A stretch of 57,814 nt of DNA from Burkholderiaceae bacterium (GTDB lineage: Bacteria > Pseudomonadota > Gammaproteobacteria > Burkholderiales > Burkholderiaceae_C), in the NCBI GenBank assembly GCA_031253795.1, contig JAIRVR010000008.1, positions 1-57,814 of the forward strand. The letters run 5' to 3'. Position 1 is the stretch's first letter; each line of letters starts with the position of its first letter. Shown piece by piece: positions 13,053 to 57,163 of this stretch. Position numbers and translations under genes: made by a program. The notes beneath the pieces were generated by a model that saw nothing but the letters and a program-made list of their open reading frames with translations, was not told the DNA's origin and searched no databases.

Positions 13053-13901
13053 ATGTGTTCCGGTATCCGGGTAATCGATCTGACCTCCAGCCTGGGCGGC
13101 CGCGCCCTGGCCAAGCTGGGGGTGGCCTATGCACCGGGCCAGCCCCGCATGCAGGTGAGGCTGGCTGCGTCCGAAGCCGCGCCCGTCATGGATTGGGGCG
13201 GTCCCCCGGGTGCGGACGAACCTCTGTGCAGCCCCGGAGGGCCATCGGCCCTGGTGCTGCTGATTGGCCCCGGCTCGGTGCGCCAGGCCAGTGCGCTATT
13301 TCAAAAGGCATTGAATGAAGCGGTGGATTGCATTCGCCTTTTTCTCATGCCCAGCGCCATCATGGAAGAGGTTGCGCTACGGCAGATGCTGGCCTCCAGC
13401 CAGCCTGCCGTTCAGCTATACCGATTACCCGACAGCAGTTCTGAAACCCTGTGGTTTGTGTTGATCGAGGAAATATCAAAAATCTCCGCCAGATTTTCCA
13501 TGGGCGGAAATGGCGATTACCGAAAAAGCGAGATTCCCATGACAAGCAATTTATCCCAATCCATGCAATCCATTATGGCCATCGAAGGCTCGATCGCAGC
13601 CGCCCTGGTGGATCACCAGAGCGGCATGTGCCTGGCCCAGGCCGGCGGGGGCATGGACCTGGAGCTGGCTGCGGCAGGCAACACGCAGGTGGTCAGGGCC
13701 AAGCTCAAAACCATGGAGTCCCTGGGACTGCGCAAGGGCATCGAAGACATTCTGATCACGCTGGGCGACCAGTACCACCTGATCCGGCTCATTCCCCACA
13801 GCCCTGGACTGTTCCTGTATCTGGTGCTCGACAAGGCACGCGGCAATCTCGCCCTGGCCCGCTACAAGCTGACGGATATAGAGCGCTCATTGAAGGTGTG
13901 A
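13053..13901 (+). CDS. Roadblock/LC7-like protein with N-terminal extension
   Basis: 282 residues if the first ATG is used. The last 120 residues, from the ATG at 13539, resemble a roadblock/LC7 fold: a helix (LSQSMQSIMAIEGSIAA), strands AALVDHQSGMCLAQAG, a long helix, then DQYHLIRLIP and LFLYLVLDKARGNLALARYKL. Such domains form dimeric platforms that bind small GTPases or kinases in bacterial polarity and motility circuits. The N-terminal 160 residues are not recognised. Neither start has a convincing ribosome site, so a 120-residue protein from 13539 is possible. A second roadblock-like gene lies at 27362-27766. Role unknown; neighbours suggest signalling. Confidence 0.6.
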   Translation: MCSGIRVIDLTSSLGGRALAKLGVAYAPGQPRMQVRLAASEAAPVMDWGGPPGADEPLCSPGGPSALVLLIGPGSVRQASALFQKALNEAVDCIRLFLMPSAIMEEVALRQMLASSQPAVQLYRLPDSSSETLWFVLIEEISKISARFSMGGNGDYRKSEIPMTSNLSQSMQSIMAIEGSIAAALVDHQSGMCLAQAGGGMDLELAAAGNTQVVRAKLKTMESLGLRKGIEDILITLGDQYHLIRLIPHSPGLFLYLVLDKARGNLALARYKLTDIERSLKV

Positions 13902-26625: not shown

Positions 26626-27033
26626 ATGAACCCGAAAGTCACCGTTAACAATAGCACCTCCAGCGACATCTTCATCGCCAGCGATCCCAACTGGGATGAT
26701 CAAATCCTGACGATTGATGGGGTCAAACAGAATACCCCATTCAAGCTCACTTCGTCAGGCATTGTGGTTGTCAGTGTGACTTACGATATCGGAACCCAGA
26801 AATCCAGCGTTCGTGGCACCGATGACCGTTATGAGATGGGCATCATCTTTTCCGCATCGAAGGACTTCGATACGGATCCGGACGGCTACCAGCTGGTGAT
26901 CGGAAAAAACGGCGCTGGCAAGCTGGACGTGACCGACGGTGGCCCGGAAGAGGCAACACCCAGCTTCAATTACAGGATCAGCGATCAAAATCCTGAATCC
27001 ATGCTCATGACTTTCATCAGCGCTATCAATTGA
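26626..27033 (+). CDS. Orphan beta-rich protein in AT-rich patch
   Basis: 135 residues, with AAAGGA 8 bases before the ATG. The product is acidic and beta-strand-rich, with no signal peptide, cysteine or membrane segment. Blocks are VTVNNSTSSDIFIASDPNW, LTSSGIVVVSVTYDIGTQK, DDRYEMGIIFSASKDFD and DGYQLVIGKNGAGKLDVTDGG. The alternating hydrophobic pattern suggests a small beta-sandwich, as in lectin-like or pore-forming toxin folds, but no catalytic or binding motif identifies it. Codon use is far less GC-biased than in neighbouring genes, consistent with recent transfer. I do not recognise the family. Confidence 0.7.
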   Translation: MNPKVTVNNSTSSDIFIASDPNWDDQILTIDGVKQNTPFKLTSSGIVVVSVTYDIGTQKSSVRGTDDRYEMGIIFSASKDFDTDPDGYQLVIGKNGAGKLDVTDGGPEEATPSFNYRISDQNPESMLMTFISAIN

Positions 27034-27361: not shown

Positions 27362-27766
27362 CTACACCGCCGCCTCGATGCGCGGCATGGCCATGCGCGC
27401 CTTGGTCAGCGCCATGCCCAGGTTGGCCGTGCGGCGGCAGACGAAGACCGCCACGTAGTCGGGCATTTGCTTGCCGCGCAGGAACACGTGGATCAGGTTG
27501 TCGCTGTTGACGATCAGCTCCTGGAAGTAATGGTGGCCGTCGTCCTTGAGGCCGCGCGATTTCTTGAACAGGCTTTCGATCATGGACACATTGGGCCCGT
27601 TGAACAGGTCGGCCGTGGCGGCAGCCACGAGGTCGATGACTTCGCGCGGGTGCGAGTCCACGGTGCGTATGGCCAGCAGCATGCCGGAGGCAGCATCGAC
27701 ATAGCCGATGGCCAGGCACTCGGGCACCGAGGTGGCCACCTCGCTCAAAACGTTATCCAGGCTCAT
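27362..27766 (-). CDS. Roadblock/LC7-like protein, partner of the ABC-phosphatase fusion
   Basis: 134 residues with an AAGGAAAG ribosome site. The pattern resembles a roadblock/LC7 domain: N-terminal helix (LDNVLSEVATSVP), strand pair ECLAIGYVDAASGMLLAIRTV, helix DLVAAATADLFNG, then HYFQELIVNSDNLIHVFLRG and DYVAVFVCRRTANLGMALTKARMAM. Such domains form homodimers that regulate GTPases or act as signalling platforms. It lies 34 bp downstream of the ABC-ATPase/phosphatase gene on the same strand, so the two are probably co-transcribed. No GTPase gene is nearby. Family assignment is by pattern and moderately sure; function is unknown. Confidence 0.65.
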   Translation of the reverse strand: MSLDNVLSEVATSVPECLAIGYVDAASGMLLAIRTVDSHPREVIDLVAAATADLFNGPNVSMIESLFKKSRGLKDDGHHYFQELIVNSDNLIHVFLRGKQMPDYVAVFVCRRTANLGMALTKARMAMPRIEAAV

Positions 27767-27800
27767 GGCAGCTTTCCTTTTTTCGATGGATGTGATTCGG

Positions 27801-29324
27801 TCAGCCGATCTTCAGCAGCAGCGCGGCCTCGTAGTCGTGCAACAGCGCCTCCTGGGCGCCGGACTGCACGTACCGGGCATCGATGAGGCGCACGCGGCGC
27901 AGCGCTTCATCGGCCGTGAGCCCTTCGCGCACCAGCCAGGCGGCCAGCACCGTGCCCGTGCGGCCCAGGCCCGCCAGGCAGTGCACGGCCAGCACCTCGC
28001 CCTTGCGCAGCATGGCCGACATGCGGGCCAGCAGCATCTGGATCTGGGCCACGGTCGGCGATTCCTGGTCATGGACCGGCAGGTGCAGGTTGCGCAGGCC
28101 ATGGCGTGCCAGTTCGGGCTGGGGCAGGTCGCCGTCGGTCAGCGTGATCAGCACGGTGACGCCACAGCGGCGCAGCGCCTGCAGGTCGGTGTCCATGGAC
28201 TGGACGATGCCGGGCTGGGGCGTGCCCGCCAGGCGGCCGGCCACCAGCCAGGCAAAGCCCTGGGGACCCCGGCTGGCGGGCACGGCATCGGGAGCGGCAG
28301 CCAGTGGCTGCCAGTCCACCAGCACGCCAGGGCCGACCTCGCGCGGCCGCGGCGCAGCGGTCCGCGCGGCGATGACCGGGTCCGGCCGTGCCGCAGGTGG
28401 CGGCACGGGGATGGTCTCCGCTACCGGCACCGGCGGGTTGCCGCGCTGGAAGGCCGACACCGCCGCCAGGGCTGCCGCAGGCAAGGCAGGAGGCAGGGCC
28501 GCGCCGGCCTCCAGGTCCTCGGGACGCGCATCGGGCGAGGCCACGGCGCAACTGCCGGTGCGCACGAACTGCTGGCCCGCCAGGGACAGGGGAGCGCGCA
28601 CAAAGGCCTCCATGGACTGGGCTTCGAGGATGCGGCCACCGGCCAGCAGCAGCATGTCCCGCGCCACAGCCTGCGCATGCTGCTGCTGGTGGGTGCACAT
28701 GAGCACGGCCGTGCGCCGTCCCACCTGGCGCAGCAGGTCCAGCAGCACAAAGGCCTCATAGCCCTGCAGCCCGGCCGTGGGCTCGTCCACCATCAGCAGG
28801 GCAGGCTCGGCCAGGGCCTCGCGCAGCAGGGCCACGGCGCGCTGCTGCACCGGAGGCAGCTGCAGGGCCGGGGTGTCCAGCAGCGGGGCCAGTTCGGAAA
28901 ATCCATAGGCCTGCAATTGCTCGCGGCACCAGCCGCGCAGCGCATGCTGCGGCATTTGCAGCCGGGGCCGGACCTGCTCCATCAAGGCATCGAAGGTGCT
29001 GGCCTGCATCAAACGCGCCTGTTGCTGCACCAGGCGCGGTGCCGGCATGCCTGCCTGCCACGGCCGGCCCGCATAGTGCACGCAGCCCCAGCGGCGAAAG
29101 CGCGGATTGGCGGCCTGGAGATCGGCCAGGGTGCGCAGCAGCGTGGACTTGCCTGCGCCCGAGGGGCCCAGCAGGGCCGTGATGCCCTGGCGTGGCAGCT
29201 GGAAGTCGACCTCGGCCAGGATGACGCGCGCTCCGAAGGACACGCCCAAACCCGCCACCTGCACGCTGTAGTCCTGCTCCAATGCCCTGCCCTTCCTGTG
29301 CTGCGATGCGCCCTCTTGGAGCAC
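27801..29324 (-). CDS. ABC ATPase fused to a dual-specificity/tyrosine phosphatase
   Basis: 507 residues from a GTG preceded by GGAGG at 5-base spacing. Residues 20-258 are an ABC ATPase resembling PstB: Walker A GPSGAGKST (53-61), Q-loop region VQQQ (99-102), Walker B LLMVDEPTAG (176-185) and H-loop histidine 212. The signature LSGGQ is replaced by LPPVQ (156-160), so ATPase coupling may be altered. A Pro/Ala-rich linker (about 265-350) joins a phosphatase domain (354-505) with general-acid loop HDQESP (D419) and the CX5R signature HCLAGLGRT (C449, R455). No permease gene is adjacent. Coupling of nucleotide binding to dephosphorylation is inference; the fusion is continuous in one frame. Confidence 0.88.
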   Translation of the reverse strand: MLQEGASQHRKGRALEQDYSVQVAGLGVSFGARVILAEVDFQLPRQGITALLGPSGAGKSTLLRTLADLQAANPRFRRWGCVHYAGRPWQAGMPAPRLVQQQARLMQASTFDALMEQVRPRLQMPQHALRGWCREQLQAYGFSELAPLLDTPALQLPPVQQRAVALLREALAEPALLMVDEPTAGLQGYEAFVLLDLLRQVGRRTAVLMCTHQQQHAQAVARDMLLLAGGRILEAQSMEAFVRAPLSLAGQQFVRTGSCAVASPDARPEDLEAGAALPPALPAAALAAVSAFQRGNPPVPVAETIPVPPPAARPDPVIAARTAAPRPREVGPGVLVDWQPLAAAPDAVPASRGPQGFAWLVAGRLAGTPQPGIVQSMDTDLQALRRCGVTVLITLTDGDLPQPELARHGLRNLHLPVHDQESPTVAQIQMLLARMSAMLRKGEVLAVHCLAGLGRTGTVLAAWLVREGLTADEALRRVRLIDARYVQSGAQEALLHDYEAALLLKIG

Positions 29325-35587: not shown

Positions 35588-37285
35588 TCAGCGCGCCGCG
35601 GCCGGGCGCTCGGCGCGCAGCGTGCGGCTGAGCATGATGACCGGGATCAGGCCCACCAGGACCAGGGCCAGCGACGGCAGGGCCGCCTCGCCCAGGCGCT
35701 CGTCGCGCGCCAGCTGGTAGGCCACCACGGCCAGGGTATCGCTGTTGAAGGGGCGCAGCACCATGGTGGCCGGCAGCTCCTTCATCACATCGACGAAGAC
35801 CAGCAGCGCGGCGGCCGCCGTGGAGCGCTTGAGCAAGGGCCAGTGCACGCGCGATAGCATGCCCCAGGGCCCCGTGCCCAGCATGCGGGCCGAGTCGTCC
35901 AGGCTGACGGGAATGCGCGCATAGCCGCTTTGCATGGACTGCAGGGCCACGGCGCAAAACCGCACCAGGTAGGCCCAGACAATGCCCACGGCCGTGGCCG
36001 TGATCAGGCCGGCGAAGCCCCATTCGGGCCGCGCCTGCTGTATCCAGCCCACGGGCAGCAGCAGGCCGACGACGATGACGGCGCCCGGCACCGCATAGCC
36101 CAGGCTGGCCAGTTGGACCACGCCGCGCGTCAGCGCCGAATGTTTGTCGCGCCGAACGGCAAAGGCCAGGGCCAGGGCCACGATCACGGCCAGGGCCGCC
36201 GTGATGGCGCCCAGGCGCACGCTGTTGAGCGCCCAGTCCAGGAAGCGGTCCCAGGGCAGGACCGACCAGTCGGCCGCCAGGGGGCGCAGCATGAAGACCA
36301 CGGGTGCCACGAAGCCCATGAGCACGGGCAGCAGGCACAGTACCCAGGCCAGGGCGCAGCGCCAGCCGCGCAGACCCAGGGGCTGGGCCTCGGTCGATCC
36401 CGCGCGGCCGGTGCCGCCGGTCACGAAGCGCATGCGGCGCTGGGCGCGCAGCTCCAGCTGCAGCAGCAGCACCACCAGAACCAGCAGGAACGTGGCCAGC
36501 TGGGCGGCCGCGATGCGGTTGTCCATGGACAGCCAGGCCTTGTAGATGCCCGTGGTGAAGGTGGTGATGCCGAAATAGCTGACCACGCCGAAGTCGGCCA
36601 GCGTTTCCATCACCACCAGGGCCACGCCGGCCGCCACGGCCGGCCGCGCCAGCGGCAGGGCCACGGACCAGATGCGCCGTGCCAGCGGCGCACCCATGAG
36701 GCGCGCGGCCTCCATCAGGTGGGCGGCGCGCTCGCCCAGCGCCGTGCGCGCCAGCAGGTAGACATAGGGATAGAGCGAGAAGATGAAGACCCAGACCGCG
36801 CCGCCCAGGCTGCGCACCTCGGGCAGCAGCCGGCCCTCGAGGCCATAGGTTGCGCGCAGCCAGGTCTGCAGCGGGCCGCTGAACTGCAGGAAGTCGGTAT
36901 AGGCATAGGCCGTGACATAGGCCGGCATGGCCAGCGGCAGCAACAGCAGCCATTCCAGCAGGCGCCGGCCGCGGAAGTCGAACAGGGTCACGGCCGCCGC
37001 CGTGCCCGTGCCCACGATGGCCGCACCCAGGGCCACCAGCAGACCCAGCCAGACCGTGGTCCACAGGTAGCCGGGCAGCACGGTGGCGGCCATTTCGCGC
37101 AGGATGGGGCCGGACTGGGCATCGCCCTGGCCCAGGGGAAGCCAGGAGGCGAGCACGGCCAGCACGGGCAGCATCAGCACCAGGGCCAGGGCCAGCAGGG
37201 GAAGGGAGCGGAGTACGGACGGCAGACGGCGCAAGACGGCAGGCTCGAAAAAGGGAGAGGGGGCAGGAAGGGGCGGACGCGCCAC
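35588..37285 (-). CDS. fbpB: Fe(III)-type ABC transporter permease (FbpB-like)
   Basis: About 565 residues from a GTG at 37285; a TTG at 37339 would add 18 residues but overlaps the inverted repeat at 37341-37365, so I prefer the shorter form. It is a double permease: two sets of about six transmembrane helices, each with an EAA-type loop (EAARLMGAPLARRIWSVALPLARP; DDSARMLGTGPWGMLSRVHWPLLKR). Conserved stretches are LPLAMPAYVTAYAYTDFLQFSGPLQ and ADFGVVSYFGITTFTTGIY, typical of ferric-iron permeases of the FbpB/SfuB group. It should work with the ATPase encoded divergently at 37385. No periplasmic binding protein gene is in the window. Confidence 0.88.
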   Translation of the reverse strand: MARPPLPAPSPFFEPAVLRRLPSVLRSLPLLALALVLMLPVLAVLASWLPLGQGDAQSGPILREMAATVLPGYLWTTVWLGLLVALGAAIVGTGTAAAVTLFDFRGRRLLEWLLLLPLAMPAYVTAYAYTDFLQFSGPLQTWLRATYGLEGRLLPEVRSLGGAVWVFIFSLYPYVYLLARTALGERAAHLMEAARLMGAPLARRIWSVALPLARPAVAAGVALVVMETLADFGVVSYFGITTFTTGIYKAWLSMDNRIAAAQLATFLLVLVVLLLQLELRAQRRMRFVTGGTGRAGSTEAQPLGLRGWRCALAWVLCLLPVLMGFVAPVVFMLRPLAADWSVLPWDRFLDWALNSVRLGAITAALAVIVALALAFAVRRDKHSALTRGVVQLASLGYAVPGAVIVVGLLLPVGWIQQARPEWGFAGLITATAVGIVWAYLVRFCAVALQSMQSGYARIPVSLDDSARMLGTGPWGMLSRVHWPLLKRSTAAAALLVFVDVMKELPATMVLRPFNSDTLAVVAYQLARDERLGEAALPSLALVLVGLIPVIMLSRTLRAERPAAAR

Positions 37286-37340
37286 GGAGCCGGTGCATGG
37301 CCGGGTCTCGGGCCTGCATGGCGAAGCGGCACCCGCCAAT

Positions 37341-37365
37341 GCAAATGCGAATTCTAGTCATTTGC
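37341..37365. promoter_or_regulatory. Inverted repeat between divergent iron-ABC genes (Fur-like)
   Basis: Arms GCAAATG and CATTTGC with an 11-base AT-rich spacer, 20 bp before the ATPase ATG and overlapping the far-upstream TTG of the permease frame. Composition and position resemble a Fur box shared by two divergent promoters; the match to the 19-bp Fur consensus is only partial. Confidence 0.5.
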
Positions 37366-37384
37366 GGGGTTCTACAATCGGCCC

Positions 37385-38467
37385 ATGTTTTTGACCGTTT
37401 CCCAACTCGAGGTGCGCTATGCAGGCCGCGACCGGCCTGCGGTGCAGGATGTGACGCTGAACCTGGCCGCCGGCGACATCGGCGTGCTCATCGGTCCCTC
37501 GGGCTGCGGCAAGACCACGCTGCTGCGCGCCGTGGCGGGACTGGAGCCCGTCAGCGGCGGCGAGATCCGCATCGACGGCCAGCTGGTGGGCAGCGCACGC
37601 TTTTCGCTACCGCCGGAGCAGCGGCGCATCGGCATGGTGTTCCAGGACTATGCCCTCTTCCCCCATTTGTCCGTGGGCCGCAACGTGGCCTTCGGCATAC
37701 ATCACCTGCCCAAGGCGCGCCAGGCCGAGCGCGTGGCCGAGGTGCTAGAGCTGGTCGGCCTGGCCGGCAGCGCCGACCGCTTTCCGCACGAGCTGTCGGG
37801 CGGCCAGCAGCAGCGCGTGGCCCTGGCCCGCGCCCTGGCGCCAAGCCCCCAGCTCATGCTGCTGGACGAGCCCTTTTCCAACCTCGACGTGGACCTGCGC
37901 GAACGCCTGGCCCACGAGGTGCGCGGCATCCTCAAGGCCGCGGGCGCCACGGCCCTGTTCGTGACCCATGACCAGCTGGAAGCCTTTGCCATCGGCGACA
38001 TGATCGGCGTGGTCCACCAGGGCCGCCTGCAGCAGTGGGACGATGCCTATTCGCTGTACCACCGGCCTGCCACGCGCTTCGTGGCCGACTTCATCGGCCA
38101 TGGCGTCTTCGTTCCGGCCACCCTGGTGCCCAAGGCCGATGGCGGCGTGGTGGCGCATACCGCCCTGGGCGACCTGGAAGACCCGCAAAGCTGCCCCCTG
38201 CCCTCGCAGTTCGCGGGGGGCGAATGCGATGTGCTGCTGCGCGCCGACGACGTGGTGCACGACGACCGCTCGCCCGTACAGGCACGCGTGCTGCGCAAGG
38301 CCTTCAGGGGTTCGGAATTCCTGTACACGCTAGAGCTGGCCAGCGGCCACAGCGTCATGGCCCATGTGCCCAGCCACCACGACCATGCGGTAGGCGACTG
38401 GGTGGGCATACGCCTGGACATGAACCATGTCGTGGCCTTCGCCCGCGAAGGGACGACCCCGGCCTGA
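37385..38467 (+). CDS. fbpC: Fe(III)-type ABC transporter ATPase (FbpC-like)
   Basis: 360 residues, typical for FbpC/PotA-type ATPases. Walker A is LIGPSGCGKTTLLRAVAG, Q-loop GMVFQDYALFPHLSV, signature HELSGGQQQRVALARALA, Walker B LMLLDEPFSNLD and H-loop LFVTHDQLEA. A C-terminal TOBE-like regulatory domain (about residues 250-355) contains DVLLRADDVVHDD, as in Neisseria FbpC. It powers import through the divergently encoded permease. The intergenic inverted repeat suggests iron-responsive co-regulation. The ATG follows directly from an AT-rich promoter segment. Confidence 0.9.
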   Translation: MFLTVSQLEVRYAGRDRPAVQDVTLNLAAGDIGVLIGPSGCGKTTLLRAVAGLEPVSGGEIRIDGQLVGSARFSLPPEQRRIGMVFQDYALFPHLSVGRNVAFGIHHLPKARQAERVAEVLELVGLAGSADRFPHELSGGQQQRVALARALAPSPQLMLLDEPFSNLDVDLRERLAHEVRGILKAAGATALFVTHDQLEAFAIGDMIGVVHQGRLQQWDDAYSLYHRPATRFVADFIGHGVFVPATLVPKADGGVVAHTALGDLEDPQSCPLPSQFAGGECDVLLRADDVVHDDRSPVQARVLRKAFRGSEFLYTLELASGHSVMAHVPSHHDHAVGDWVGIRLDMNHVVAFAREGTTPA

Positions 38468-38563: not shown

Positions 38564-39898
38564 ATGTTCGCACTGGACCCCTCCGCCACGCAGAGCCCTG
38601 CCCTCGCCCCGGCACCCGGTTCCTCCCGCCTCGTGGCCCGCGCAGGCCAGCTCAGCCAGCCCACGGCACCGATTTCCCCCGAGACCAGCAATGAAGAGGT
38701 ACACCGCCTGTTCAGCGAGCAGCCCCAGCTCGAAACCCTGGCCGTGGTCGCCGAGCAGCGTCCGCTGGGCCTGATCAACCGCCAGCGCTTCATGGAGCAG
38801 TACGCGCGCCCCTTTGCGCGCGACGTGTTCGGTCGCCGCACCTGCCTGGTCTTCACCGACACCGCGCCCATGGTGGTGGCGGCCAGCCTGCCCATCGACC
38901 AGTTGGTCCACCAGGCCCTGGCCAGCGGCAGCCGCGTGCTCAAGGAAGGCTTCATCACCACCGAGGAAGGCTGCTATGCCGGCATAGGCACGGGCCATGC
39001 CCTGATGGCAGCCATGTCCGACATCGAGGCCGACAAGACGCGCCAGCTCATGGCCAGCATCGACTACGCCAGCCTGATCCAGCGCTCGCACCTGGTCGAA
39101 TCCGATCGCGTGCTGGCCAGCCACCTGCCCGATCACGGCCTGCTGTGGGAGCCGCGCGACGTGGTGGGCGGCGACGCCTACTTCTTCCGTGCCACACCCC
39201 AGGGCCTGCTGGGCTGCGTCTTCGATTGCACGGGCCATGGCGTGCCCGGCGCCTTCATGACCCTGATCGCCCTGTCCTTCCTGGAGCAGGCCGTGACCCC
39301 GTCCGCCGGCCCGCTGGACCCGGGCGCCCTGCTGGGCCAGATGAACCGCTACATCAAGCGCGTGCTGCAGCAGCGCAACCGCGATGCGCAGCCGGCCTGG
39401 GGCGTGCCCCAGGCCGCCGAGGGCCTGCCCGCGGAAAAGACGTCGAGCGACGGCCTGGACGCCGCCCTGTTCCTGCAATCGGCCTGCGGCACGCGGCTGC
39501 GTTTCGCGGCCGCGCGCCTGGACCTGCTGATCGCACCGCCTGGCGCGGAAGATGCCGCCCAGGTGCGCGTGGAGTCCGGCGACAAGATGGGCATAGGCTA
39601 TGCCACCACACCCGATGATGCCGCCTGGAGCACGCAGGAGCTGGAGCTTGCGCCGGACTCCTTGCTGATGATCGCCACGGACGGCGTCATCGACCAGCTC
39701 GGCGGACCGCGCCACATCGCCCATGGCCGCAAACGCCTGACGCGTTTTCTGCAGGAGCAGCAGGCCCGGCCCGCGGCCGAGGCCTGCGCGGAATTCCAGC
39801 AGGCCTTTGCCCTGTGGCAGGGCACCCAGCGCCGGCGCGACGATGTCTCGCTGCTGGTGTGGCGCAACCAGGCCGTGGCGGCGGGAGCGGCGGCATGA
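38564..39898 (+). CDS. siaA: SiaA-like PP2C/SpoIIE phosphatase with CBS-like N-terminus
   Basis: 444 residues. The N-terminal ~150 residues resemble a CBS-pair module found with GGDEF proteins (ERPLGLINRQRFMEQYARPFARDVFGRR, KEGFITTEEGCYAGIGTGHALM). A helical linker leads to a SpoIIE-type phosphatase domain with metal aspartates in PRDVVGGDAYFF, VFDCTGHGVPGAFMTLIALSF, LMIATDGVIDQLGG and RRDDVSLLVW. In Pseudomonas SiaA dephosphorylates SiaC, activating it. There SiaA is a membrane protein with a HAMP; here the sensor is soluble and CBS-like. siaB overlaps its stop as ATGA and siaC follows, so the operon assignment is firm. Confidence 0.88.
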   Translation: MFALDPSATQSPALAPAPGSSRLVARAGQLSQPTAPISPETSNEEVHRLFSEQPQLETLAVVAEQRPLGLINRQRFMEQYARPFARDVFGRRTCLVFTDTAPMVVAASLPIDQLVHQALASGSRVLKEGFITTEEGCYAGIGTGHALMAAMSDIEADKTRQLMASIDYASLIQRSHLVESDRVLASHLPDHGLLWEPRDVVGGDAYFFRATPQGLLGCVFDCTGHGVPGAFMTLIALSFLEQAVTPSAGPLDPGALLGQMNRYIKRVLQQRNRDAQPAWGVPQAAEGLPAEKTSSDGLDAALFLQSACGTRLRFAAARLDLLIAPPGAEDAAQVRVESGDKMGIGYATTPDDAAWSTQELELAPDSLLMIATDGVIDQLGGPRHIAHGRKRLTRFLQEQQARPAAEACAEFQQAFALWQGTQRRRDDVSLLVWRNQAVAAGAAA

Positions 39899-40518
39899 AC
39901 CCCACGGAATTCGCGCGCCTGCGCGCCCAGGCCGAACACAACGGCCTGCTGCTGTACTACGCAGGCCCCTTCAATCCGAATGTCATCCAGGCCGCGGCCG
40001 ACACGCTCAAGGGCCGGCTGGCCAGCGAGGACGGATCGAGCAGCGCCAAGCGCAAGCTGTTCTCGACCTTCATCGAGATGGCGCAGAACGTGCTGCACTA
40101 CGCGGCCCCCCTGCCCAGCAGCGAGCCCGGCGATGCAGGCGCACCCATGGCGCGCGGCGCCATCGGCGTGGGCCGTGTCGAGGCCCTGGACCCGGCCGGC
40201 GACGAGGACGGCCACCTGTCCCAGGCACATTTCTGGATCGCCTGCAGCAACGCCGTGCAAAACGCCCATGTACCGCGCCTGGCCGCCAAACTGGATGCCG
40301 TGCGCGCCATGAGCCTGCCCGAAATCAAGGCCGCCTACCGTGCCCAGCTGCACAACACCCACCACGGCGAGGAAGACGACATCAGCCGTGGCGCCGGCCT
40401 GGGCTGGCTGACCATCGCGCGCGATGCCTCGGCACCGCTGCAATACCACATCGCCACCGGCGAGGATGCCACCGAGACCGCGCCCCACGCCGTGTTCCAC
40501 GTCAAGGCACTGATCTGA
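39895..40518 (+). CDS. siaB: SiaB-like protein kinase
   Basis: 207 residues; the ATG overlaps the siaA stop (ATGA), indicating translational coupling. The product matches the SiaB family kinase pattern: GLLLYYAGPFNPNVIQAAADTLKG, the helix FSTFIEMAQNVLHYA with an E..QN nucleotide-binding N-box, and a late glycine-rich block (ISRGAGLGWLTIARDA). SiaB phosphorylates the small protein SiaC and opposes SiaA, setting whether SiaC can bind and activate a diguanylate cyclase. It is cytoplasmic. The neighbouring genes siaA and siaC complete the switch. Confidence 0.9.
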   Translation: MNPTEFARLRAQAEHNGLLLYYAGPFNPNVIQAAADTLKGRLASEDGSSSAKRKLFSTFIEMAQNVLHYAAPLPSSEPGDAGAPMARGAIGVGRVEALDPAGDEDGHLSQAHFWIACSNAVQNAHVPRLAAKLDAVRAMSLPEIKAAYRAQLHNTHHGEEDDISRGAGLGWLTIARDASAPLQYHIATGEDATETAPHAVFHVKALI

Positions 40519-40556
40519 ACGCAGCGCCTCCCCCAACGAACCGATTGGCCGTCACC

Positions 40557-40943
40557 ATGCAAGCACTGAAATCCGAACGCACCTCCGTCACGCCCGAAGT
40601 GGTCTTCTCTCCGGCCGATCAGCTTCTGCGCATCGAAGGCGAGTGCTATCCCGAAAACCCTCTGCCCTTTTTCAACCCCATCCTGACCACGCTGGGCCAG
40701 TACTTCGCTGCCCACCAGCCCGGCAGCTTCGTGGCCGAGATGAAGCTGCAGTACATCAACAGCGCATCGACCATGGGCCTGCGCTCCCTGTTCGCCCTGC
40801 TGGACCAGGCCGGCGAAAAGGGCACGGACATCCGCGTGGTCTGGGCCTATGACGAGGAAGACGACGCCATCGAGGAACTGGGCGCGGACCTGGTGGAGGA
40901 CTTCTCCAACCTGGTGCTGGAGCGCCAGCCCTACGGCAACTGA
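40557..40943 (+). CDS. siaC: SiaC-family regulatory phosphoprotein (DUF1987)
   Basis: 128 residues. The family pattern is clear: VVFSPADQLLRIEGECYPENPLPFFNPIL, then SFVAEMKLQYINSASTMGLRSLFALLD, which contains the Ser/Thr cluster equivalent to the phosphorylation site, then RVVWAYDEEDDAIEELGADL. SiaC is an anti-sigma-antagonist-like fold that binds and activates the cyclase SiaD when unphosphorylated. No siaD is adjacent: the next gene is a convergent GNAT whose stop overlaps the siaC 3' end by 13 bp. A GTG slightly upstream is an alternative start. Confidence 0.9.
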   Translation: MQALKSERTSVTPEVVFSPADQLLRIEGECYPENPLPFFNPILTTLGQYFAAHQPGSFVAEMKLQYINSASTMGLRSLFALLDQAGEKGTDIRVVWAYDEEDDAIEELGADLVEDFSNLVLERQPYGN

Positions 40944-47860: not shown

Positions 47861-50800
47861 TCAGGCCTCTTCGCCCTGGGGCTCGGGGTCGGCCTGCTGG
47901 GGTGCGGGTTCGGTGCTTCCACCCTGCAGGGCATAGTGCTGGATCAGGCCCAGCAGCTCCTCGTCCGAATAGGGCTTGCCCAGGTAGTGGTTGGCGCCCA
48001 GCTGGCGCGCCAGCTCACGGTGCTTTTGGGCAATGCGCGAGGTGATCATCTCCACGGGCAGGTCGCCAAGCGCCTCGTCGGCCCGGATGTTACGCAGCAG
48101 GTCGAAGCCGTCCATGCGCGGCATTTCGATGTCGGACAGCACCAGGGTCGGGCGCTCCTCGGCCAGGCGCTCGATGGCCTGCAGCCCGTCGGCCGCCAGC
48201 GCCACCCGGTAGCCTTCACGCTGCAGCAGGCGCTGGGTGACGCGTCGCACGGTGATGGAATCGTCCACCACCAGCACCAGGGGCACGGACACGGGGCCGG
48301 TATCGGCCGCCAGCAGGCCTTCGCCACCGGCTTCGCCGGCCGCCTGCTCGGCAGCCTCGGTCATGGCGCGCACTTCATCGCCATAGACGTTGGCAAGCGC
48401 CACGGGGTTGTAGATCTGCACCACGGCGCCAGAGGCCAGCACCGACATGCCGGTCAGGCCCGGCAGGCGGGCCAGCTGGGGGCCAAGGTTCTTGACCACG
48501 ACTTCCTGGTTGCCCAGCACTTCGTCCACGTGCAACGCGATGCGCTGGGCTGCGCTGCGCAGTATGACCACGGGCCGCGTGCGACCCACGCTTTCCTCGC
48601 TGCGCAGCGAGGACTGCCACAGCGCGCCGGCCCAGTAAAAGGGCAGGGACTCGATGCCGTCATCGAAACCGTGCTCGCGGTAGGCCTGCTGCAGCTGGTC
48701 CAGCGATGCGCGGCGCACGATTTCCACCAGACTGGCCGGCACGCCGACCAGCATGCGGCCCGCGCGCAGCATGACCACCTGGGTCACGGCCGTGGTCAGC
48801 GGCAGCACCAGGCGGAAGGCACTGCCCCGGCCCGCCTCGCTGTGGGTTTCTATGCGTCCGCCCAGGGCGTTGACTTCGGAGCGCACCACGTCCATGCCGA
48901 TGCCGCGGCCGGCCACGCCGGTCACTTCGGTGGCCGTGGTAAAGCCCGGCTCGAAGATGAGGCGGCCCGCGTCTTCCGTGGTCAGCACCTGGTCCGCAGG
49001 CCACAGGCCCTGGGCCACGGCCTTGTCACGGATGCGCTCGATGTTGAGGCCGGCGCCATCGTCCTCCACCGACAGCGCCACGTCGTTGCGCTCCTGGCTG
49101 AGGATGATTTCAATCGTGCCCATGGCGGGCTTGCCCGCCGCGGTGCGCTGCTCGGGCGGCTCGATGCCATGCGCCACGCAGTTGCGCAGCAAATGCTCGA
49201 AGGCCGGCATCATGCGGTCCAGCATGCCCCGGTCCATTTCGATGGTGCCGCCCAGAATGTTCAGGCGCACCTGCTTGCCCATTTCCTTGGAGGTCTGGCG
49301 CACGACGGCATACAGGCGCTCGGCCAGGGAGTCGAACTCCACCATGCGCGTGCGCAGCAGATCGCGCTGCAGGTCGCGCGCCTGCCGGCCCTGCGCCACC
49401 AGATCGTCTTCGGCACCAGCCATGTCGCGCTGCAGGTTGCGCTGCACGGTGGCCACGTCGTTGACCGACTCGGCCATCATGCGCGTGAGCTCCTGCACCC
49501 GCGTGAAGCGGTCGAACTCCAGCGGATCGAAGCCTGCGGCCGAATCCTTGGACAGGGCCAGGCGCGATTGCATCTGGCTTTCGGCCTGGACCTCGATGTC
49601 GCGCAACTGCATGCGCAGGCGCTCCAGATTGCCGGCCAGCTCGTCCAGCGAGCCACGGGCCTGGGCCAGGCGTGCATCGACGCGCGAACGCGCGATCAGC
49701 ACCTCGCCAGCCTGGCTGATCAGGCGGTCCAGCAGTTGGGCACGTACGCGCACCGTCTGCTGGGCCCCGGCGCGCAGCGGCGGAACCACAGGCGCGGGCA
49801 TGGCGGCCGGCGCGGCAGGCTCGACCATGGCGGCCCGGGCCTCGGGCGCACCCGCGGCGGCCTCCGGCATGGTGGGCTCGTCGGCGGTGTCCAGCGGCAT
49901 GTCCTGGGCCTGTTCGCCCACGACGCGCAGCACGTCGAAGCCGGCCTGCAGCGCATCGAAATGGCCCAGCAGGGGCTCGATCTGTTCAGCCGAAGGCAAC
50001 TCGCCATCGACCTGCTCCACGGCCGATTCCAGGCGGTGGGCCATTTCGCCCAGGCGCATGGCGCCCGCCAGGCGCGCACTGCCCTTGAGCGTGTGCAGGG
50101 CGCGCAGCACTTCGTTGCGCGCCTCGTCCAGCGAGGGCCGGCCATGCCAGCGGCGCAGGGCTGCGCCCAGGCGTGGCAGCAGCTCCACCGCCTCTTCCTC
50201 GAAGATGGGGAACAGGTCGGGATCCACCTCGTCGAGGGCATCGATGTCATCGACCAGCTCATCGCCCATGGACACGGCATGGGCGATGGCCTCGTCGATG
50301 CGGCGCTGCAGCTCGGCCTCGTGGCCCACATCGTTGACGAGAGGGCGCATGGAGTAGGCCAGGGGCGGCGTGGCCGCGTCGGTGGCATCTTCCACGGGCA
50401 GGGCCGCGTCGATCGCGGCATCGCCGCCGGCCTCCTGCACCTCGGCCACCGGATCTTCGGCATCCAGCAGGCTGTCGGGTGCATCGGCGGGCTCGATGTC
50501 CAGCGCCAGAATGGCCTGCAGCGCTTCCTCGACACCGGCTACGGGTGTCTTGAGGAAACCGGCCGCGAACTGGTGCAGCAGGCGCCGCACCTCGTCCGAA
50601 GCCGCGATGCAGTCGGCCATCTGCTGCGGCGTGCCGCGGCGCTGGGGTTGCAGATGGGCCAGCGCATGTTCGAGCAGGCGCGCCAGATCCGACAGGGCCT
50701 TGAAGCCCACGGTGGCTGAACTGCCTGCCAGCGAGTGCGCGAACGCGATGGCATCCTCGGGCACGGGTTCGCCGGGCTCGCCAGCCCATTGCTGCAGGCT

Positions 50801-53800
50801 CAGATCCAGGCGGCGCGACCATTCGTCGGCCTCGTTGAGGTAGACGTTGTACAGCGGTGCGCTGATGCGCAGGCCGTCCACCACCTTGATGCCCTCACCG
50901 GCCAGCGCATCGGCATCGGCATCGGCATCGGCATCGGCATCCGGCACGGCCGCGGCTTCGGCGGCCGGCAATTCGGCAGCGGCCGGCACCGGCTCGGTCA
51001 GTTCCAGGTCGATGCCGTCGAAAGGCGAGGCCAGGGGCTGCAGCGGCGCCGGCGCGGGTGGTTCGTCCTCGGCGGCATCAGGGGGCTGGGCGGGCTCGGG
51101 AAGTGTTTCGGTGATGGCGGCCAGCGACTCCTGCTCGCTGTCTCGCATGGCGGCCTCGAAGGCCGCGAAGTCGAGATCCTCCACCGCGTCGGCCGCCAGG
51201 ACAGAAGCGGGCTCGGCGGGCAGTTCCAGCTCCGGCTCGGGCTGGGCCACCGCAAGCGCCGGCTCCGGCAGCGGAACGGCTGGCGCATCGACGGCCGGCC
51301 CCACAGAGGCCGGCAGGTCGAGGAAGCTGAAATCCAGCGGAAGGTCGAGTTCGGACACCGAGGCCTGGGCGGGCGCGGCCGGCTCGTCGGCCACAGGCTG
51401 GGCCTGCGCCTCGTCCGCGGCCGGTGCCTGGACGGGAAAGTCGAAGACATCGGCAGCAGTTGCGGCCGCACGGTCGGCGCGCGGGGCCAGGGCCACCTCG
51501 GCGCGCTCGCCCGTCAGGCGCATGGCATCGGCCGCGGCGCGGAAGGGCGTGGCCTGCCAGGCAGCGGCCTGGCCCTGGCCTATGGCCTGGGCCCAGGCGC
51601 CGAAGGCGCGCAAGGCCTCGCCCGCCAGCTGCTGCATGGGCTGGGGCATGGGCTTTTGCTCGGCCAGCCAGGCATTGAGCATTTGCTCCATGGCCCAGCC
51701 GGCTTCGCCGAACTCGTCCAGGCCCACCATGCGCGAGCTGCCCTTGAGCGTGTGGAAAGCGCGGCGCAGCGTGGTCTGTTCGCTGAGGTTGCCGGGTTCG
51801 TCGGCCAGGGCGTTCAAGGCCTGCAGGCCGTTGTCCACCACCTCGCGGGCCTCTTCCAGGAAGATGCCCAGCAGCTCATCGTCCGAGTCGTCGGCGGCGA
51901 AGGACAGATCGGCAGCCGGCGCAGGCACGGGCACGGGCGCGGCCACAGGGGCTGGCGGCGGTGGAGGCGGCGGCAGGACCTGGACCTCGGCGGGTACCGC
52001 CTCCTGTGCCGGCAGCACGGCGGCGGGTTCGGCCACGGGTGGCTGGGGCACGGGCAGCGGCTGGGCCACGGCCACGGCTTCGCGCCGGGGCGGCACGGCC
52101 TGGTCGTCGAGGACGGGCAGTTGCTCGGGCGCCTTGTCTGCATCGCTGGCGCGGTGGCTGCGCCGGCCCATGACCATGCGCAGGCCGCCTTCGGCCTCGT
52201 CATAGACGAACAGCTTGCGCGCCATGTTGCGCTGGTAGCTGAGCATGTCGATCAGAAAGCCCATGGCTCCCAGGCTGTTGCCCAACTTGTCGAAGACCTG
52301 GGCACGCTGGTCCTCGGCGATCTCGCCCAGCACCAGCCGGTCGACGGTGTCGCGCATGCGCTGCATGGCCTGTGTGGCCTGGTCCAGACCCAGCACCGAC
52401 AGCACGCCACGCATCTGGGCCATCTGGCCCGACACGGGCGCCAGTACGGCGGGATCCGCAGGGTTGCGGAAGAACAGGTCCAGATGGCGCTCGGCCTCGG
52501 CCAGGGTGGAGCGCAGCTCGCCCACGACCGAGCCCATGGTCTGGTGGTCGCTGGCCTGGCGGTACAGCTCTTCCATCCAGGATTCCAGCGGACGGGCGGG
52601 CGCGCCCTGCAGCGATTCCTCCAACCGCTGGACCAGGCTGGCCGACTGGCCGGACAGCTCTTCGTCGCCAAGGTCCATGGTCGCAAACGCGGCCTGCAGG
52701 TACAGCACGGCCGTGGCCACTTCCATGGCCAGCTCGGCCGGTGGCGGCTCGCCGATGCGCGCCACGGTCTCGGCCACGCGGATCAGCATGCGCGCCAGCC
52801 CATGGCTGGCGGGGTGGAGCTTGACCAGGGACTCGGCCACCTGGGCGAACTGGTCCACGACGATCTTGGTGCGCGCGCGGTCACCGCCGGCCAGGGCCGA
52901 CCAGGTCTCCGCGGCGGTGGTGATGCGCTTGCGCGCCTGCTGCAGCACGGCCGGATCGAAGCGGCCGAAGCGCGTGACCTGGTAGTTGGCCTGGGGCTCG
53001 TCCCCCTGCATGCCATAGGCCTGGCGCACGGCCTGCAGGGCCGGGCCGCCCTGCTCGGCCGGACGCGCCTGGGCGCAGAAAAACAGCAGGTCCTGCAGCA
53101 GCCGGGCCGGCGGCGTGCCATCGCCCTTGGCCATGGCGGCGTACTGCAGCAGCACGCGCGAGGCCATGCGCTTGACGAACAGGTCCACGGCGATCAGACC
53201 GCGCGACTGTCCGTCGAAGAAGCCGGCCGCCACCTTCCAGAAGCTGCGTGCCGTGACATCCTCGTCCTGGCCCGCGGCAAAGCGCAGGCACAGGTCGCGC
53301 ATTTGCGCGGCGGCCTCGCGGTCGTCGCTCTTGACCATGCGCAGCACAACGCCGTCCAGCAGGGCGCGCGCGCCGGCGCCATAGGCCAGCGGCTCGGGCC
53401 GGGCCTGGGTCCAGGCCGGCTCATGGGCACGGCGCTCGGCAGGCCACAGGTCGGCCGGGTGCACCTTGTCGTTGCCGGCCAGCGCCTGGGTGTCGCGGTA
53501 TTGCGGAAACAGGGCCACAGCCGGCACGTTCTTGCCGGCGAGCACGGTTTCCAGGTATTCGATCAGGGCGAAGCTGGCGCGCTCCAGCGCGGCCGCGGCC
53601 TCGTCCGTGCACAGCTCGGGCCGCTGCACGAAGCGCTGCACCGCGTTCTCCATGCCGCGCAGCACCAGGGCCGGGCTGCTGAGCCCCACCATCTCCAGGG
53701 CGCCACAGGCCTGGTGCAACTGCTGGCGCGCGATGCGCAGCGCCGAGGTGTCCAGGCTTTCCAGATCCGAGGCGCGTGCGGCATCGGCATCGCGGACGAA

Positions 53801-53932
53801 GCGGCCCACGGCCTTGCTCGCCCCTTCCAGCGACTTGCGCAGCTCATCGAGCACCCAGGCCAGAGGGCCCAGATCCTGTTCGGTGTGCGCGGCCTGCACC
53901 GCGCCCGTTTGCGAGTCGTCAACCACTGACAT
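47861..53932 (-). CDS. chpA: ChpA/PilL hybrid chemotaxis histidine kinase of the Pil-Chp system
   Basis: 2023 residues. The N-terminus (to about 580) is FimL/Hpt-like without a phospho-histidine (LHQACGALEMVGLSSPAL). Three Hpt domains follow: FHTLKGSSRMVG near residue 725, HSLAGSSATVG near 1065 and LHTLKGSARLAG near 1280. Then come dimerisation, CheA-type ATPase (LLRNCVAHGIEPPEQR; DDGAGLNIERIRDKA; TGVAGRGIGMDVVRSEV), a CheW-like domain and a receiver with LSDIEMPRMDG near 1932. Long acidic Pro/Ala linkers include a hexanucleotide repeat tract. Pseudomonas ChpA has more Xpt domains. It relays surface contact from PilJ to PilG/PilH and cAMP. Genes pilJ, pilI, pilH and pilG follow upstream on the same strand; pilK and chpB homologues are absent. 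Confidence 0.95.
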   Translation of the reverse strand: MSVVDDSQTGAVQAAHTEQDLGPLAWVLDELRKSLEGASKAVGRFVRDADAARASDLESLDTSALRIARQQLHQACGALEMVGLSSPALVLRGMENAVQRFVQRPELCTDEAAAALERASFALIEYLETVLAGKNVPAVALFPQYRDTQALAGNDKVHPADLWPAERRAHEPAWTQARPEPLAYGAGARALLDGVVLRMVKSDDREAAAQMRDLCLRFAAGQDEDVTARSFWKVAAGFFDGQSRGLIAVDLFVKRMASRVLLQYAAMAKGDGTPPARLLQDLLFFCAQARPAEQGGPALQAVRQAYGMQGDEPQANYQVTRFGRFDPAVLQQARKRITTAAETWSALAGGDRARTKIVVDQFAQVAESLVKLHPASHGLARMLIRVAETVARIGEPPPAELAMEVATAVLYLQAAFATMDLGDEELSGQSASLVQRLEESLQGAPARPLESWMEELYRQASDHQTMGSVVGELRSTLAEAERHLDLFFRNPADPAVLAPVSGQMAQMRGVLSVLGLDQATQAMQRMRDTVDRLVLGEIAEDQRAQVFDKLGNSLGAMGFLIDMLSYQRNMARKLFVYDEAEGGLRMVMGRRSHRASDADKAPEQLPVLDDQAVPPRREAVAVAQPLPVPQPPVAEPAAVLPAQEAVPAEVQVLPPPPPPPAPVAAPVPVPAPAADLSFAADDSDDELLGIFLEEAREVVDNGLQALNALADEPGNLSEQTTLRRAFHTLKGSSRMVGLDEFGEAGWAMEQMLNAWLAEQKPMPQPMQQLAGEALRAFGAWAQAIGQGQAAAWQATPFRAAADAMRLTGERAEVALAPRADRAAATAADVFDFPVQAPAADEAQAQPVADEPAAPAQASVSELDLPLDFSFLDLPASVGPAVDAPAVPLPEPALAVAQPEPELELPAEPASVLAADAVEDLDFAAFEAAMRDSEQESLAAITETLPEPAQPPDAAEDEPPAPAPLQPLASPFDGIDLELTEPVPAAAELPAAEAAAVPDADADADADADALAGEGIKVVDGLRISAPLYNVYLNEADEWSRRLDLSLQQWAGEPGEPVPEDAIAFAHSLAGSSATVGFKALSDLARLLEHALAHLQPQRRGTPQQMADCIAASDEVRRLLHQFAAGFLKTPVAGVEEALQAILALDIEPADAPDSLLDAEDPVAEVQEAGGDAAIDAALPVEDATDAATPPLAYSMRPLVNDVGHEAELQRRIDEAIAHAVSMGDELVDDIDALDEVDPDLFPIFEEEAVELLPRLGAALRRWHGRPSLDEARNEVLRALHTLKGSARLAGAMRLGEMAHRLESAVEQVDGELPSAEQIEPLLGHFDALQAGFDVLRVVGEQAQDMPLDTADEPTMPEAAAGAPEARAAMVEPAAPAAMPAPVVPPLRAGAQQTVRVRAQLLDRLISQAGEVLIARSRVDARLAQARGSLDELAGNLERLRMQLRDIEVQAESQMQSRLALSKDSAAGFDPLEFDRFTRVQELTRMMAESVNDVATVQRNLQRDMAGAEDDLVAQGRQARDLQRDLLRTRMVEFDSLAERLYAVVRQTSKEMGKQVRLNILGGTIEMDRGMLDRMMPAFEHLLRNCVAHGIEPPEQRTAAGKPAMGTIEIILSQERNDVALSVEDDGAGLNIERIRDKAVAQGLWPADQVLTTEDAGRLIFEPGFTTATEVTGVAGRGIGMDVVRSEVNALGGRIETHSEAGRGSAFRLVLPLTTAVTQVVMLRAGRMLVGVPASLVEIVRRASLDQLQQAYREHGFDDGIESLPFYWAGALWQSSLRSEESVGRTRPVVILRSAAQRIALHVDEVLGNQEVVVKNLGPQLARLPGLTGMSVLASGAVVQIYNPVALANVYGDEVRAMTEAAEQAAGEAGGEGLLAADTGPVSVPLVLVVDDSITVRRVTQRLLQREGYRVALAADGLQAIERLAEERPTLVLSDIEMPRMDGFDLLRNIRADEALGDLPVEMITSRIAQKHRELARQLGANHYLGKPYSDEELLGLIQHYALQGGSTEPAPQQADPEPQGEEA
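50907..50941. repeat. Hexanucleotide microsatellite inside chpA
   Basis: GCATCG occurs five times perfectly and nearly a sixth time, encoding alternating Asp-Ala in a linker between Hpt domains. Because the unit is 6 bp, slippage changes linker length by Asp-Ala pairs without frameshift. Confidence 0.9.
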
Positions 53933-53986
53933 GGACAGTTCCCCAAGCCCCTAGGGCCTGTGCGTAGATGTGGGCGGTGTGCCCGA

Positions 53987-56236: not shown

Positions 56237-56254
56237 GACACGGCCTTCAGGGAC

Positions 56255-56782
56255 TCAAGCACGAATGCTCAGAAACTCGGAGGTTTGGGACAGCCGCTGC
56301 AGCTGCAGCTCCTGCCAGCGGTTGCCCGCTGCATCGATATGGACGGGCCCGAAGAACGCGGGCGAGGACTCGGGCGCGCTTTCCGTGCCCACGAAGGCAT
56401 CGGCGCCGCGCAGGCCCTGCAAGCGGTCCACCAGCAGGGCGGCGTTGACTTCCAGCGCGGCGTTGAAGGCCAGCAGGCTGGCCTCGGCCAGAGCCGGTTC
56501 GCTGCGCGCCGAGCCATGGCCCAGCAGGGCCGCGAGATCAACCACGCCGGCCAGCGTGCCGCGCAGGTTGGCAATCCCCAGGAACCAGGGCTTGGTATAG
56601 GGCACGGGCTGCACACCCGTCCAGGGAAAGATTTCCCCGGATTGGCCCAGCGGCAGCAGATAGCCGCGGCCGCCGGCCTGGACGGCCAGCCAGGCAGCGA
56701 CCTTGACGCCTTCGCTGCGCGCAGCCTGCAGGCGGCCCGCCAGGCGCGACTGCAGGTCCCTCAGTGCTTCACGGTTCGCCAT
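56255..56782 (-). CDS. pilI: PilI, CheW-like adaptor of Pil-Chp
   Basis: 175 residues. CheW-like beta-barrel blocks are GGRGYLLPLGQSGEIFPW, VPYTKPWFLGIANLRGTLAGVVDLAALLG and the late segment HIDAAGNRWQELQLQRLSQTSEFLSI. The N-terminal helix (NREALRDLQSRLAGRLQ) is typical of PilI. It couples the PilJ receptor to the ChpA kinase. The gene lies between pilH (15 bp) and pilJ (18 bp), in the conserved order. Confidence 0.92.
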   Translation of the reverse strand: MANREALRDLQSRLAGRLQAARSEGVKVAAWLAVQAGGRGYLLPLGQSGEIFPWTGVQPVPYTKPWFLGIANLRGTLAGVVDLAALLGHGSARSEPALAEASLLAFNAALEVNAALLVDRLQGLRGADAFVGTESAPESSPAFFGPVHIDAAGNRWQELQLQRLSQTSEFLSIRA

Positions 56783-56797
56783 GGGCAGCGCACCGCG

Positions 56798-57163
56798 TCA
56801 ATTCAGTGCCGCGATCTTGGCCTGCAGCTCGCCTGCATCGACCGGCTTGGTGATGTAGTCACGCGCGCCCTGGCGCATGCCCCAGACCCGGTCGGTTTCC
56901 TGGTTCTTGCTGGTGCACATGATGATGGGCAGGTCGGCGTACTGCGGATCGCGCGTGATGGCACGTGTGAGCTGAAAGCCGTTCTGGCCCGGCATGACCA
57001 CATCCATGAGGATGAGGTCGGGGCGGTCTTCGGCCAGGCTGCGCAGCGCTTCTTCGCCGTTTTCGGCCGTACGCACTTGCAGGCCCTGCTTTTGCAGCAA
57101 GTCGGTCAGGAACATCAGTTCGGTTTTGGAGTCGTCCACGACCAGGACTTTGCGGATGGGCAT
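56798..57163 (-). CDS. pilH: PilH, CheY-like response regulator
   Basis: 121 residues. The single receiver domain has VLVVDDSKTELMFLTDLL, phospho-acceptor in DLILMDVVMPGQNGFQ, Thr/Ser in IMCTSKNQETD and lysine in DYITKPVDAGEL. The ATG overlaps the pilG stop (TGATG), with AGGAG 7 bases upstream, so the longer open frame seen from 57628 is not the gene. PilH acts with PilG on pilus extension and retraction and in cAMP signalling; it is often a phosphate sink. Confidence 0.94.
   Translation of the reverse strand: MPIRKVLVVDDSKTELMFLTDLLQKQGLQVRTAENGEEALRSLAEDRPDLILMDVVMPGQNGFQLTRAITRDPQYADLPIIMCTSKNQETDRVWGMRQGARDYITKPVDAGELQAKIAALN

Follow-up and report, generated by a model that had tools for sequence, protein, structure and literature searches.

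Bacterial Ras-like GTPase/roadblock modules are known chiefly from Myxococcus polarity and from the Streptomyces conservons. In Myxococcus xanthus, MglB, MglC and RomR occur in one complex, and the polarity module is a target of the Frz chemosensory system (PMC10329633). We describe here a gene pair from a 57,814-nucleotide stretch of a Burkholderiaceae bacterium (assembly GCA_031253795.1, contig JAIRVR010000008.1), hereafter called the window. One gene fuses an ATP-binding cassette (ABC) type ATPase to a dual-specificity phosphatase, and its neighbour encodes a small MglC-like protein with a predicted roadblock fold. We favour, with somewhat better than even confidence, the reading that the two serve as the phosphatase unit in signalling by a roadblock protein and a Ras-like GTPase of the MglA type. 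A literature search found no description of a roadblock protein paired with an ABC-phosphatase fusion. Genomes and loci are designated below by G and L numbers, and the features of the pair in the window are the following.

27801 to 29282, minus strand: ABC-ATPase/dual-specificity phosphatase fusion gene, 493 residues (open frame, start of the relatives, Pfam).
28557 to 29264, minus strand: ABC-type ATPase domain, residues 21-256 of a 507-residue reading (Pfam, NCBIfam).
29142 to 29168, minus strand: Walker A motif GPSGAGKST, with Gly58, Lys59 and Ser60 invariant in 23/23 fusions.
28845 to 28859, minus strand: ABC signature position, with LPPVQ replacing LSGGQ.
28779 to 28799, minus strand: Walker B motif LLMVDEP with the catalytic Glu, Asp-Glu-Pro being kept in 23/23.
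28305 to 28556, minus strand: linker rich in Pro and Ala, which aligns poorly and evolves fast.
27804 to 28292, minus strand: dual-specificity phosphatase domain, residues 345-507 of the 507-residue reading (Pfam).
28068 to 28070, minus strand: candidate general acid Asp419, Asp in 22/23.
27954 to 27983, minus strand: phosphatase P-loop HCLAGLGRTG, HCxxGxGRTG in 23/23.
27362 to 27766, minus strand: MglC-like roadblock-fold protein, 134 residues (profile comparison and structure).

The frame from 27801 to 29324 is continuous, with zero stops between the ATPase and phosphatase domains, and both domains lie within one frame in all 26 loci examined, which bears out the single fused frame proposed by a first-pass annotation of this DNA. 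That annotation had placed the start at a GTG at 29324, yielding the 507-residue reading; this start was given up for the TTG at 29282, common to the Delftia and Comamonas relatives, which yields 493 residues. Pfam ABC_tran matched residues 37-184 with 53.5 bits (cut-off 25), and the NCBIfam ABC models matched residues 22-254. The top NCBIfam match was PstB (TIGR00972), with 93.4 bits for a cut-off of 343.2, so that of the original label "PstB-like ABC ATPase" the ABC part stands and the PstB part does not. The phosphatase domain exceeded the Pfam cut-offs for Tc-R-P (76.2 bits), PTP-SAK (68.6 bits) and DSPc (41.7 bits, cut-off 33.5). The nearest solved sequences found by comparing its profile to the PDB were 25xa (1.8e-39), whose record name is dual specificity protein phosphatase family protein, and human DUSP23 (4.4e-29). 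A 540-residue phosphatase frame in G216 was also considered and is not an ABC fusion.

The conservation pattern of the fusions supports the motifs reported at first pass, namely intact Walker A and B motifs and H-loop with an altered signature, and an intact phosphatase active site with a plausible general acid. In addition to the positions listed above, the H-loop His is kept in 22 of the 23 aligned fusions. The SGGQ signature is absent from these 23 and from 6 further fusions, that is from 29/29 surveyed, whereas SGG[QEM] is retained in all 14 control ABC loci taken from the family search (L017-L030). The ratio of nonsynonymous to synonymous substitution rates (Ka/Ks), calculated in five comparisons, was 0.20-0.32 for the ABC part and 0.17-0.31 for the phosphatase part. 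The linker evolves faster than both domains (0.32-0.62), and the 134-residue partner is the most constrained part of all (0.03-0.10). In ordinary ABC dimers, each ATP site is completed by the signature of the opposite head. Since the signature is lost here, a normal ABC hydrolytic cycle is unlikely; judging from its motifs, the head is nevertheless expected to bind ATP.

The partner gene starts 34 bp past the fusion stop. The partner had zero matches in Pfam (E up to 1), PF03259 Robl_LC7 included, and in NCBIfam, and a single-sequence search of the PDB returned nothing significant. Its predicted structure shows the alpha-2beta-alpha-3beta-alpha roadblock fold. In profile comparisons, hhalign related the partner profile A5 to A4 with a probability of 93.6 and a P of 2.1e-7, pointing to a sequence relation to roadblock proteins, while the controls A5 versus A6 and A5 versus A8 gave 0.3 and 0.1. 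The sole PDB match of A5 under an E of 0.01 was Myxococcus MglC (7ct3, 2.8e-4). According to model and profile, the partner is thus a roadblock-fold protein although Pfam models do not detect it. The spacing and the fold announced by the first-pass annotation were both recovered, and the Pfam check that it had suggested retrieved ABC_tran and DSPc but not Robl_LC7.

We surveyed 200 genomes of the window's family, its own included, representing 141 genera. Fusion matches were considered strong at an E of 2e-27 or better; weaker ones, which resembled other ABC ATPases, were disregarded. Strong matches to both proteins were found in 15 genomes, to the fusion only in 1 (G066), to the partner only in 1 (G121) and to neither in 183, a co-occurrence with a Fisher P of 2e-20 that ignores shared ancestry. 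The expectation that the two genes would co-occur in relatives was thus upheld. The partner occurs in 14 of the 141 genera. Adjacency was assessed on 26 loci, comprising 16 from the family search (the window among them) and 10 named ones. The two genes are neighbours in 25 of them, with the partner downstream in 21 and upstream in 4, and one of the 26 loci has a partner on both sides of the fusion. Among 274 genomes of the class, strong matches to the phosphatase domain (E<1e-50) and to the partner (E<1e-60) came from the same five genomes. The pair neighbourhood is stable between Delftia and Comamonas; most family loci hold the pair only, with varying neighbours. The pair loci L038 and L039, with equal match figures, belong to Paenacidovorax caeni and Comamonas suwonensis records, a case of recent transfer or contamination.

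The GTPase-cluster context observed in other families is our main clue for reading the pair as a phosphatase arm. Five loci carry the predicted operon [winged helix-turn-helix (wHTH)- or receiver-like]-[Ras-like GTPase]-[fusion]-[MglC-like], in which the label of the head protein was given by eye. Four of these loci lie outside the window's family (L195, L196, L159, L160) and one inside (L073). A PF03259 roadblock gene then follows in L195, L196 and L073, and in L160 past a globin gene; none was seen at the L159 cluster. At L197 the fusion, the partner and a roadblock gene are present, with a GTPase-like frame two genes further. For L172 and L199, six-frame and tblastn scans replaced the gene calls, which were apparently on the wrong strand. 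The GTPase profile, built on 13 aligned sequences, matched Sec4 best in the PDB (1.6e-10) and MglA at 7e-8, and the 60 PDB entries among the matches listed are Rab/Ras-type GTPases and MglA. The G3 motif of the fusion-linked GTPases is GTPGQ in L159 and L160, GAPGQ in L195 and L073, and GVPGQ in L196. According to the part of PMC4316618 consulted, GTPGQ is the G3 motif of MglA groups 2-5.

Within the family survey, PF03259 was detected above cut-off in 9/16 fusion genomes versus 19/184 others. Counting matches under the cut-off as well would give 10/16 versus 20/184, and the over-cut-off count was used instead; a PF03259 match in G003 was dropped, since it is below the cut-off and its frame resembles a dehydrogenase. 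Ras-like GTPases were likewise enriched, with 8/16 fusion genomes versus 17/184 others, as found with a single query from the GTPase-positive genome G086 that possibly missed diverged copies; the P-values of both enrichments ignore shared ancestry. In a maximum-likelihood tree, the fusions of L159, L160, L195, L196 and L197 fall outside a 24-row clade that holds the pair-only fusions and the L073 fusion; the clade support of 93/74 is below the tool's star limit, and the tree is midpoint-rooted with long branches. This placement suggests that the operon arrangement may be the older state. The best reading of most Comamonadaceae loci seen is that the pair there is detached from the GTPase module.

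More distant partner homologues were collected at 12 loci (11 class genomes and one order genome) holding 13 of them, and the fusion is absent at all 12. The gene order receiver-like/GTPase/roadblock/MglC-like, with MglC-like last, was recognised in 9/12, using profiles partly built from the same loci; PF03259 was confirmed by Pfam in L162, L163 and L169. GTPGQ is present in 8/9 distant GTPases. In 7/12 loci, the adjoining gene is convergent on the opposite strand and encodes a protein of about 503-526 residues with a C-terminal calcineurin-type phosphoesterase domain.

L162, L163, L164, L165, L167, L168 and L169, opposite strand to the MglC-like gene: kinase-like/calcineurin-type phosphatase fusions (C-terminal domain by Pfam).

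The N-terminal domain of these proteins appears by eye to be kinase-like, its K, E, D, N and D columns being invariant in 7/7; Pfam did not recognise it, and its profile found no PDB match up to an E of 10. As the seven belong to one family and are convergent with the MglC-like gene, the calcineurin-type gene is a weak link. In L161, a PP2C gene lies upstream on the same strand. A plasmid search retrieved partner homologues on plasmids of Ruegeria, 5 in number, each of which is typed as non-mobilizable. On one of them, NZ_CP065362.1 (L200 1-14399), the MglC-like gene (36.6% identity) stands amid four genes annotated as dynamin-family members, and a protein kinase gene is close to it. Tentatively, and as a possibility that we consider less likely than not, MglC-like proteins might be general adaptors that connect Ras-like GTPase switches (in Ruegeria perhaps dynamin-like ones) to phosphorylation or dephosphorylation. 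The enzymes would be lineage-specific, namely an ABC-dual-specificity phosphatase, a kinase-like-calcineurin-type phosphatase, a PP2C phosphatase or a protein kinase, and the window would carry the ABC-phosphatase version with a signature-less ATP gate. This generalisation is weakened because the MglC-like genes and the kinase-like/phosphatase genes converge and do not run in the same direction.

For the pair itself, we propose that the small protein acts as an MglC-like roadblock adaptor, probably dimeric, that would dock the fusion and link it to a Ras-like GTPase and to a canonical roadblock protein, a link suggested by the gene clusters common to them in other families. The ABC head would bind ATP and, without the signature, would probably be unable to assemble the hydrolysing sandwich typical of ABC ATPases. 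It probably works instead as a slow switch, either of conformation or of dimerisation, that depends on ATP and gates the phosphatase. The phosphatase domain, whose catalytic residues are present, would in turn dephosphorylate a phosphoprotein. The first-pass annotation had imagined a nucleotide-gated phosphatase with a dimeric platform: the motifs and the roadblock partner fit this picture, of which gating, dimerisation and complex formation are the inferred parts. Its other suggestion, a phosphate-linked signalling unit, is not supported, given the missed PstB cut-off and the lost signature, and no phosphate-transport gene was recognised beside the pair in the listed neighbourhoods, inspected by eye and partly with Pfam.

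Several observations weigh against the coupling to a GTPase module. No GTPase gene was seen beside the pair in the window or in most family loci, and the window's genome (59% complete) has a PF03259 gene and no such GTPase found. The shared ancestry that the enrichment P-values ignore counts on the same side, as does the origin of the GTPase query in G086, itself one of the GTPase-positive genomes. The four fusion-linked GTPases tested had only ATP_bind_1 above the Pfam cut-off, and just 2/5 fusion-clustered GTPases have GTPGQ. The cluster-head proteins tested with Pfam gave at most weak helix-turn-helix matches, under cut-off; the label receiver-like was given by eye, the proteins tested having no Pfam match above cut-off. 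The MglB-binding FDI residues of MglC (F25, D26, I28) are not kept in A5, a comparison in which the N-terminal part of the alignment scores no more than 4.9 bits and had to be lengthened by eye. Among the RomR-binding KRR residues (K104, R106, R110), only R110 is matched, by R124. Pairing has its exceptions too: for the fusion of G066 (L015), the partner was found neither within 20 kb nor genome-wide, and three partner genes occur without the fusion, as the sole copy in G121 and as second copies in G018 and G126. For the fusion, AlphaFold2 (AF2) gave a poor model from 10 input sequences (pLDDT 51.4), which was left out of fold searching. Finally, an ABC permease gene (PF00528, assigned on the window's copy) lies near the pair in 8/29 loci.

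This last observation is why a role in transport is retained as a weak rival, in which the fusion would act as the ATP-binding subunit of a phosphate transporter, or of a transporter for some other solute, or would regulate such a subunit. The intact Walker A, Walker B and H-loop and the choice of PstB as best NCBIfam match (93 bits) are compatible with such a role, and the absence of an adjacent permease, claimed at first pass and verified in the window, does not extend to L040 and L071, where the permease is the next upstream gene on the same strand. The ABC domain, however, is far below the PstB cut-off and has lost a signature that all controls retain. The permease is 6 kb away in the window, none was found in the remaining 21 of the 29 neighbourhoods, and in all 8 loci that have it, it adjoins another ABC ATPase gene (with a TOBE domain in the window). 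It therefore needs no fusion, and we read it as part of a transporter of its own, in a syntenic block that these 8 loci have partly in common. We regard transport as most improbable. Much the same low credence is given to an anti-phage or other conflict module with the ATPase as sensor and the phosphatase as effector. The patchy distribution would suit it, as would the PADLOC ABC-type matches to the fusion (mad3, 1.2e-13); all six PADLOC matches are nevertheless confined to P-loop ATPase stretches, none being to the partner. The names of the two best Pfam phosphatase models, Tc-R-P and PTP-SAK, point to what we take to be polymorphic-toxin and conflict-system work. Against this, phage records lack the partner (E 1e-5), plasmids lack the phosphatase domain (E 1e-20), the plasmid-borne partner homologues of Ruegeria are on non-mobilizable replicons, and Delftia and Comamonas have stable surroundings for the pair.

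Small molecules, phosphoinositides among them, are also substrates for enzymes of the dual-specificity phosphatase fold, and PTEN and phytase chains are among the PDB matches of the phosphatase profile. The phosphatase could thus act on a small-molecule or lipid phosphate and not on a protein; with 25xa and human DUSP23 as nearest solved sequences, a similarity that does not settle the substrate, we think this quite improbable. A stronger contender, although still an unlikely one in our judgement, is a self-contained pair in which the roadblock protein regulates the fused ATPase only, the GTPase tie having been lost in Comamonadaceae and the clusters elsewhere being remnant or local. It would account for the pair being alone amid changing neighbours in most family loci and for the 8/16 fusion genomes without a GTPase match, and the roadblock superfamily has been predicted to comprise general regulators of nucleoside triphosphatases (Koonin and Aravind 2000, as cited in the part of PMC4316618 consulted). 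The enrichment of both GTPase and PF03259 genes in fusion genomes argues against it, as do G128, a genome of the same genus with two GTPase-roadblock gene pairs elsewhere, and the diverged GTPases that a single-query search may overlook. We therefore keep the phosphatase unit of a GTPase/roadblock system as the favoured reading, and hold any particular output of the pair with less confidence than the coupling itself.

Among possible outputs, control of motility or of a type IV pilus/chemosensory system is the likeliest, and is weakly supported by the surroundings of the pair. The window contains, about 18.6 kb upstream of the fusion and on the same strand, the following operon.

47861 to 57561, minus strand: Pil-Chp-type chemosensory operon (Pfam including PilJ PF13675; gene calls).

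It encodes a ChpA-like hybrid kinase of 2021 residues with Hpt domains, PilJ, CheW and two receiver proteins. In G129, the pair comes directly after response-regulator, CheW, methyl-accepting chemotaxis protein (MCP) and CheA-hybrid genes. A PilJ match lies at most 30 kb from the fusion in at least 6/16 fusion genomes, which share a syntenic block; the mere presence of PilJ PF13675 is uninformative, since 175/200 family genomes and 16/16 fusion genomes have it (Fisher 0.23).

Other elements were seen in and around these loci. At 38564-40943 (plus strand), the window has a SiaABC-like set made of a SpoIIE-type protein, a DUF6272 protein and SiaC, a second phospho-signalling unit near the fusion. 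An ABC permease and a divergent TOBE-type ABC ATPase occupy 35588-38467. A 135-residue frame at 26626-27033 (plus strand), with a weak coding score and no Pfam match, is convergent with the MglC-like gene. A 108-residue frame at 13575-13901 (plus strand) has a roadblock-like stretch, VDHQSGMCLA, which gave 5 bits to the MglC-like profile and could not be confirmed. The fusion of G066 (L069 9358-10533) is short and has no linker, and its adjacent genes look by eye like the flagellar FlgN, FlgM and FlgA. The fusion-less MglC-like genes are located at L067, L068 and L065.

If the proposed reading is true, a phosphatase arm would give GTPase/roadblock modules an enzymatic output or feedback, comparable to the phosphatases of eukaryotic small-GTPase pathways, and Delftia and Comamonas would be tractable hosts in which to study it. 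An ATP-binding, signature-less ABC head would moreover represent a non-transport use of the ABC fold.

Compared with described systems, the clusters resemble the MglA/MglB/MglC/RomR module of M. xanthus in that a Ras-like GTPase, a canonical roadblock protein and MglC-like proteins are clustered in several loci. They differ from it by the phosphatase fused to an ABC ATPase, of which none was found in the parts of the MglC literature consulted, by the FDI and most KRR residues of MglC not being kept, and by a cluster-head protein that Pfam does not identify as RomR. Like the Streptomyces conservons (CvnA-D), they are small GTPase operons with a roadblock protein and signalling partners, as described in the consulted part of PMC4316618; unlike these, they include MglC-like and phosphatase genes, and no histidine-kinase-like gene was recognised in them by eye and partly with Pfam. 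The phosphatase shares with DUSP23-type enzymes a profile match (4.4e-29) and a complete HCxxGxxR active site, and differs from them in being C-terminal to an ABC head and a long linker. The head has the Walker A, Walker B and H-loop of PstB and other ABC ATPases; in contrast to them, it has lost the signature, is fused to a phosphatase and has no dedicated permease. Small GTPase and roadblock operons were thus already known, and the part not found in the literature search is an ABC-phosphatase fusion as their partner.

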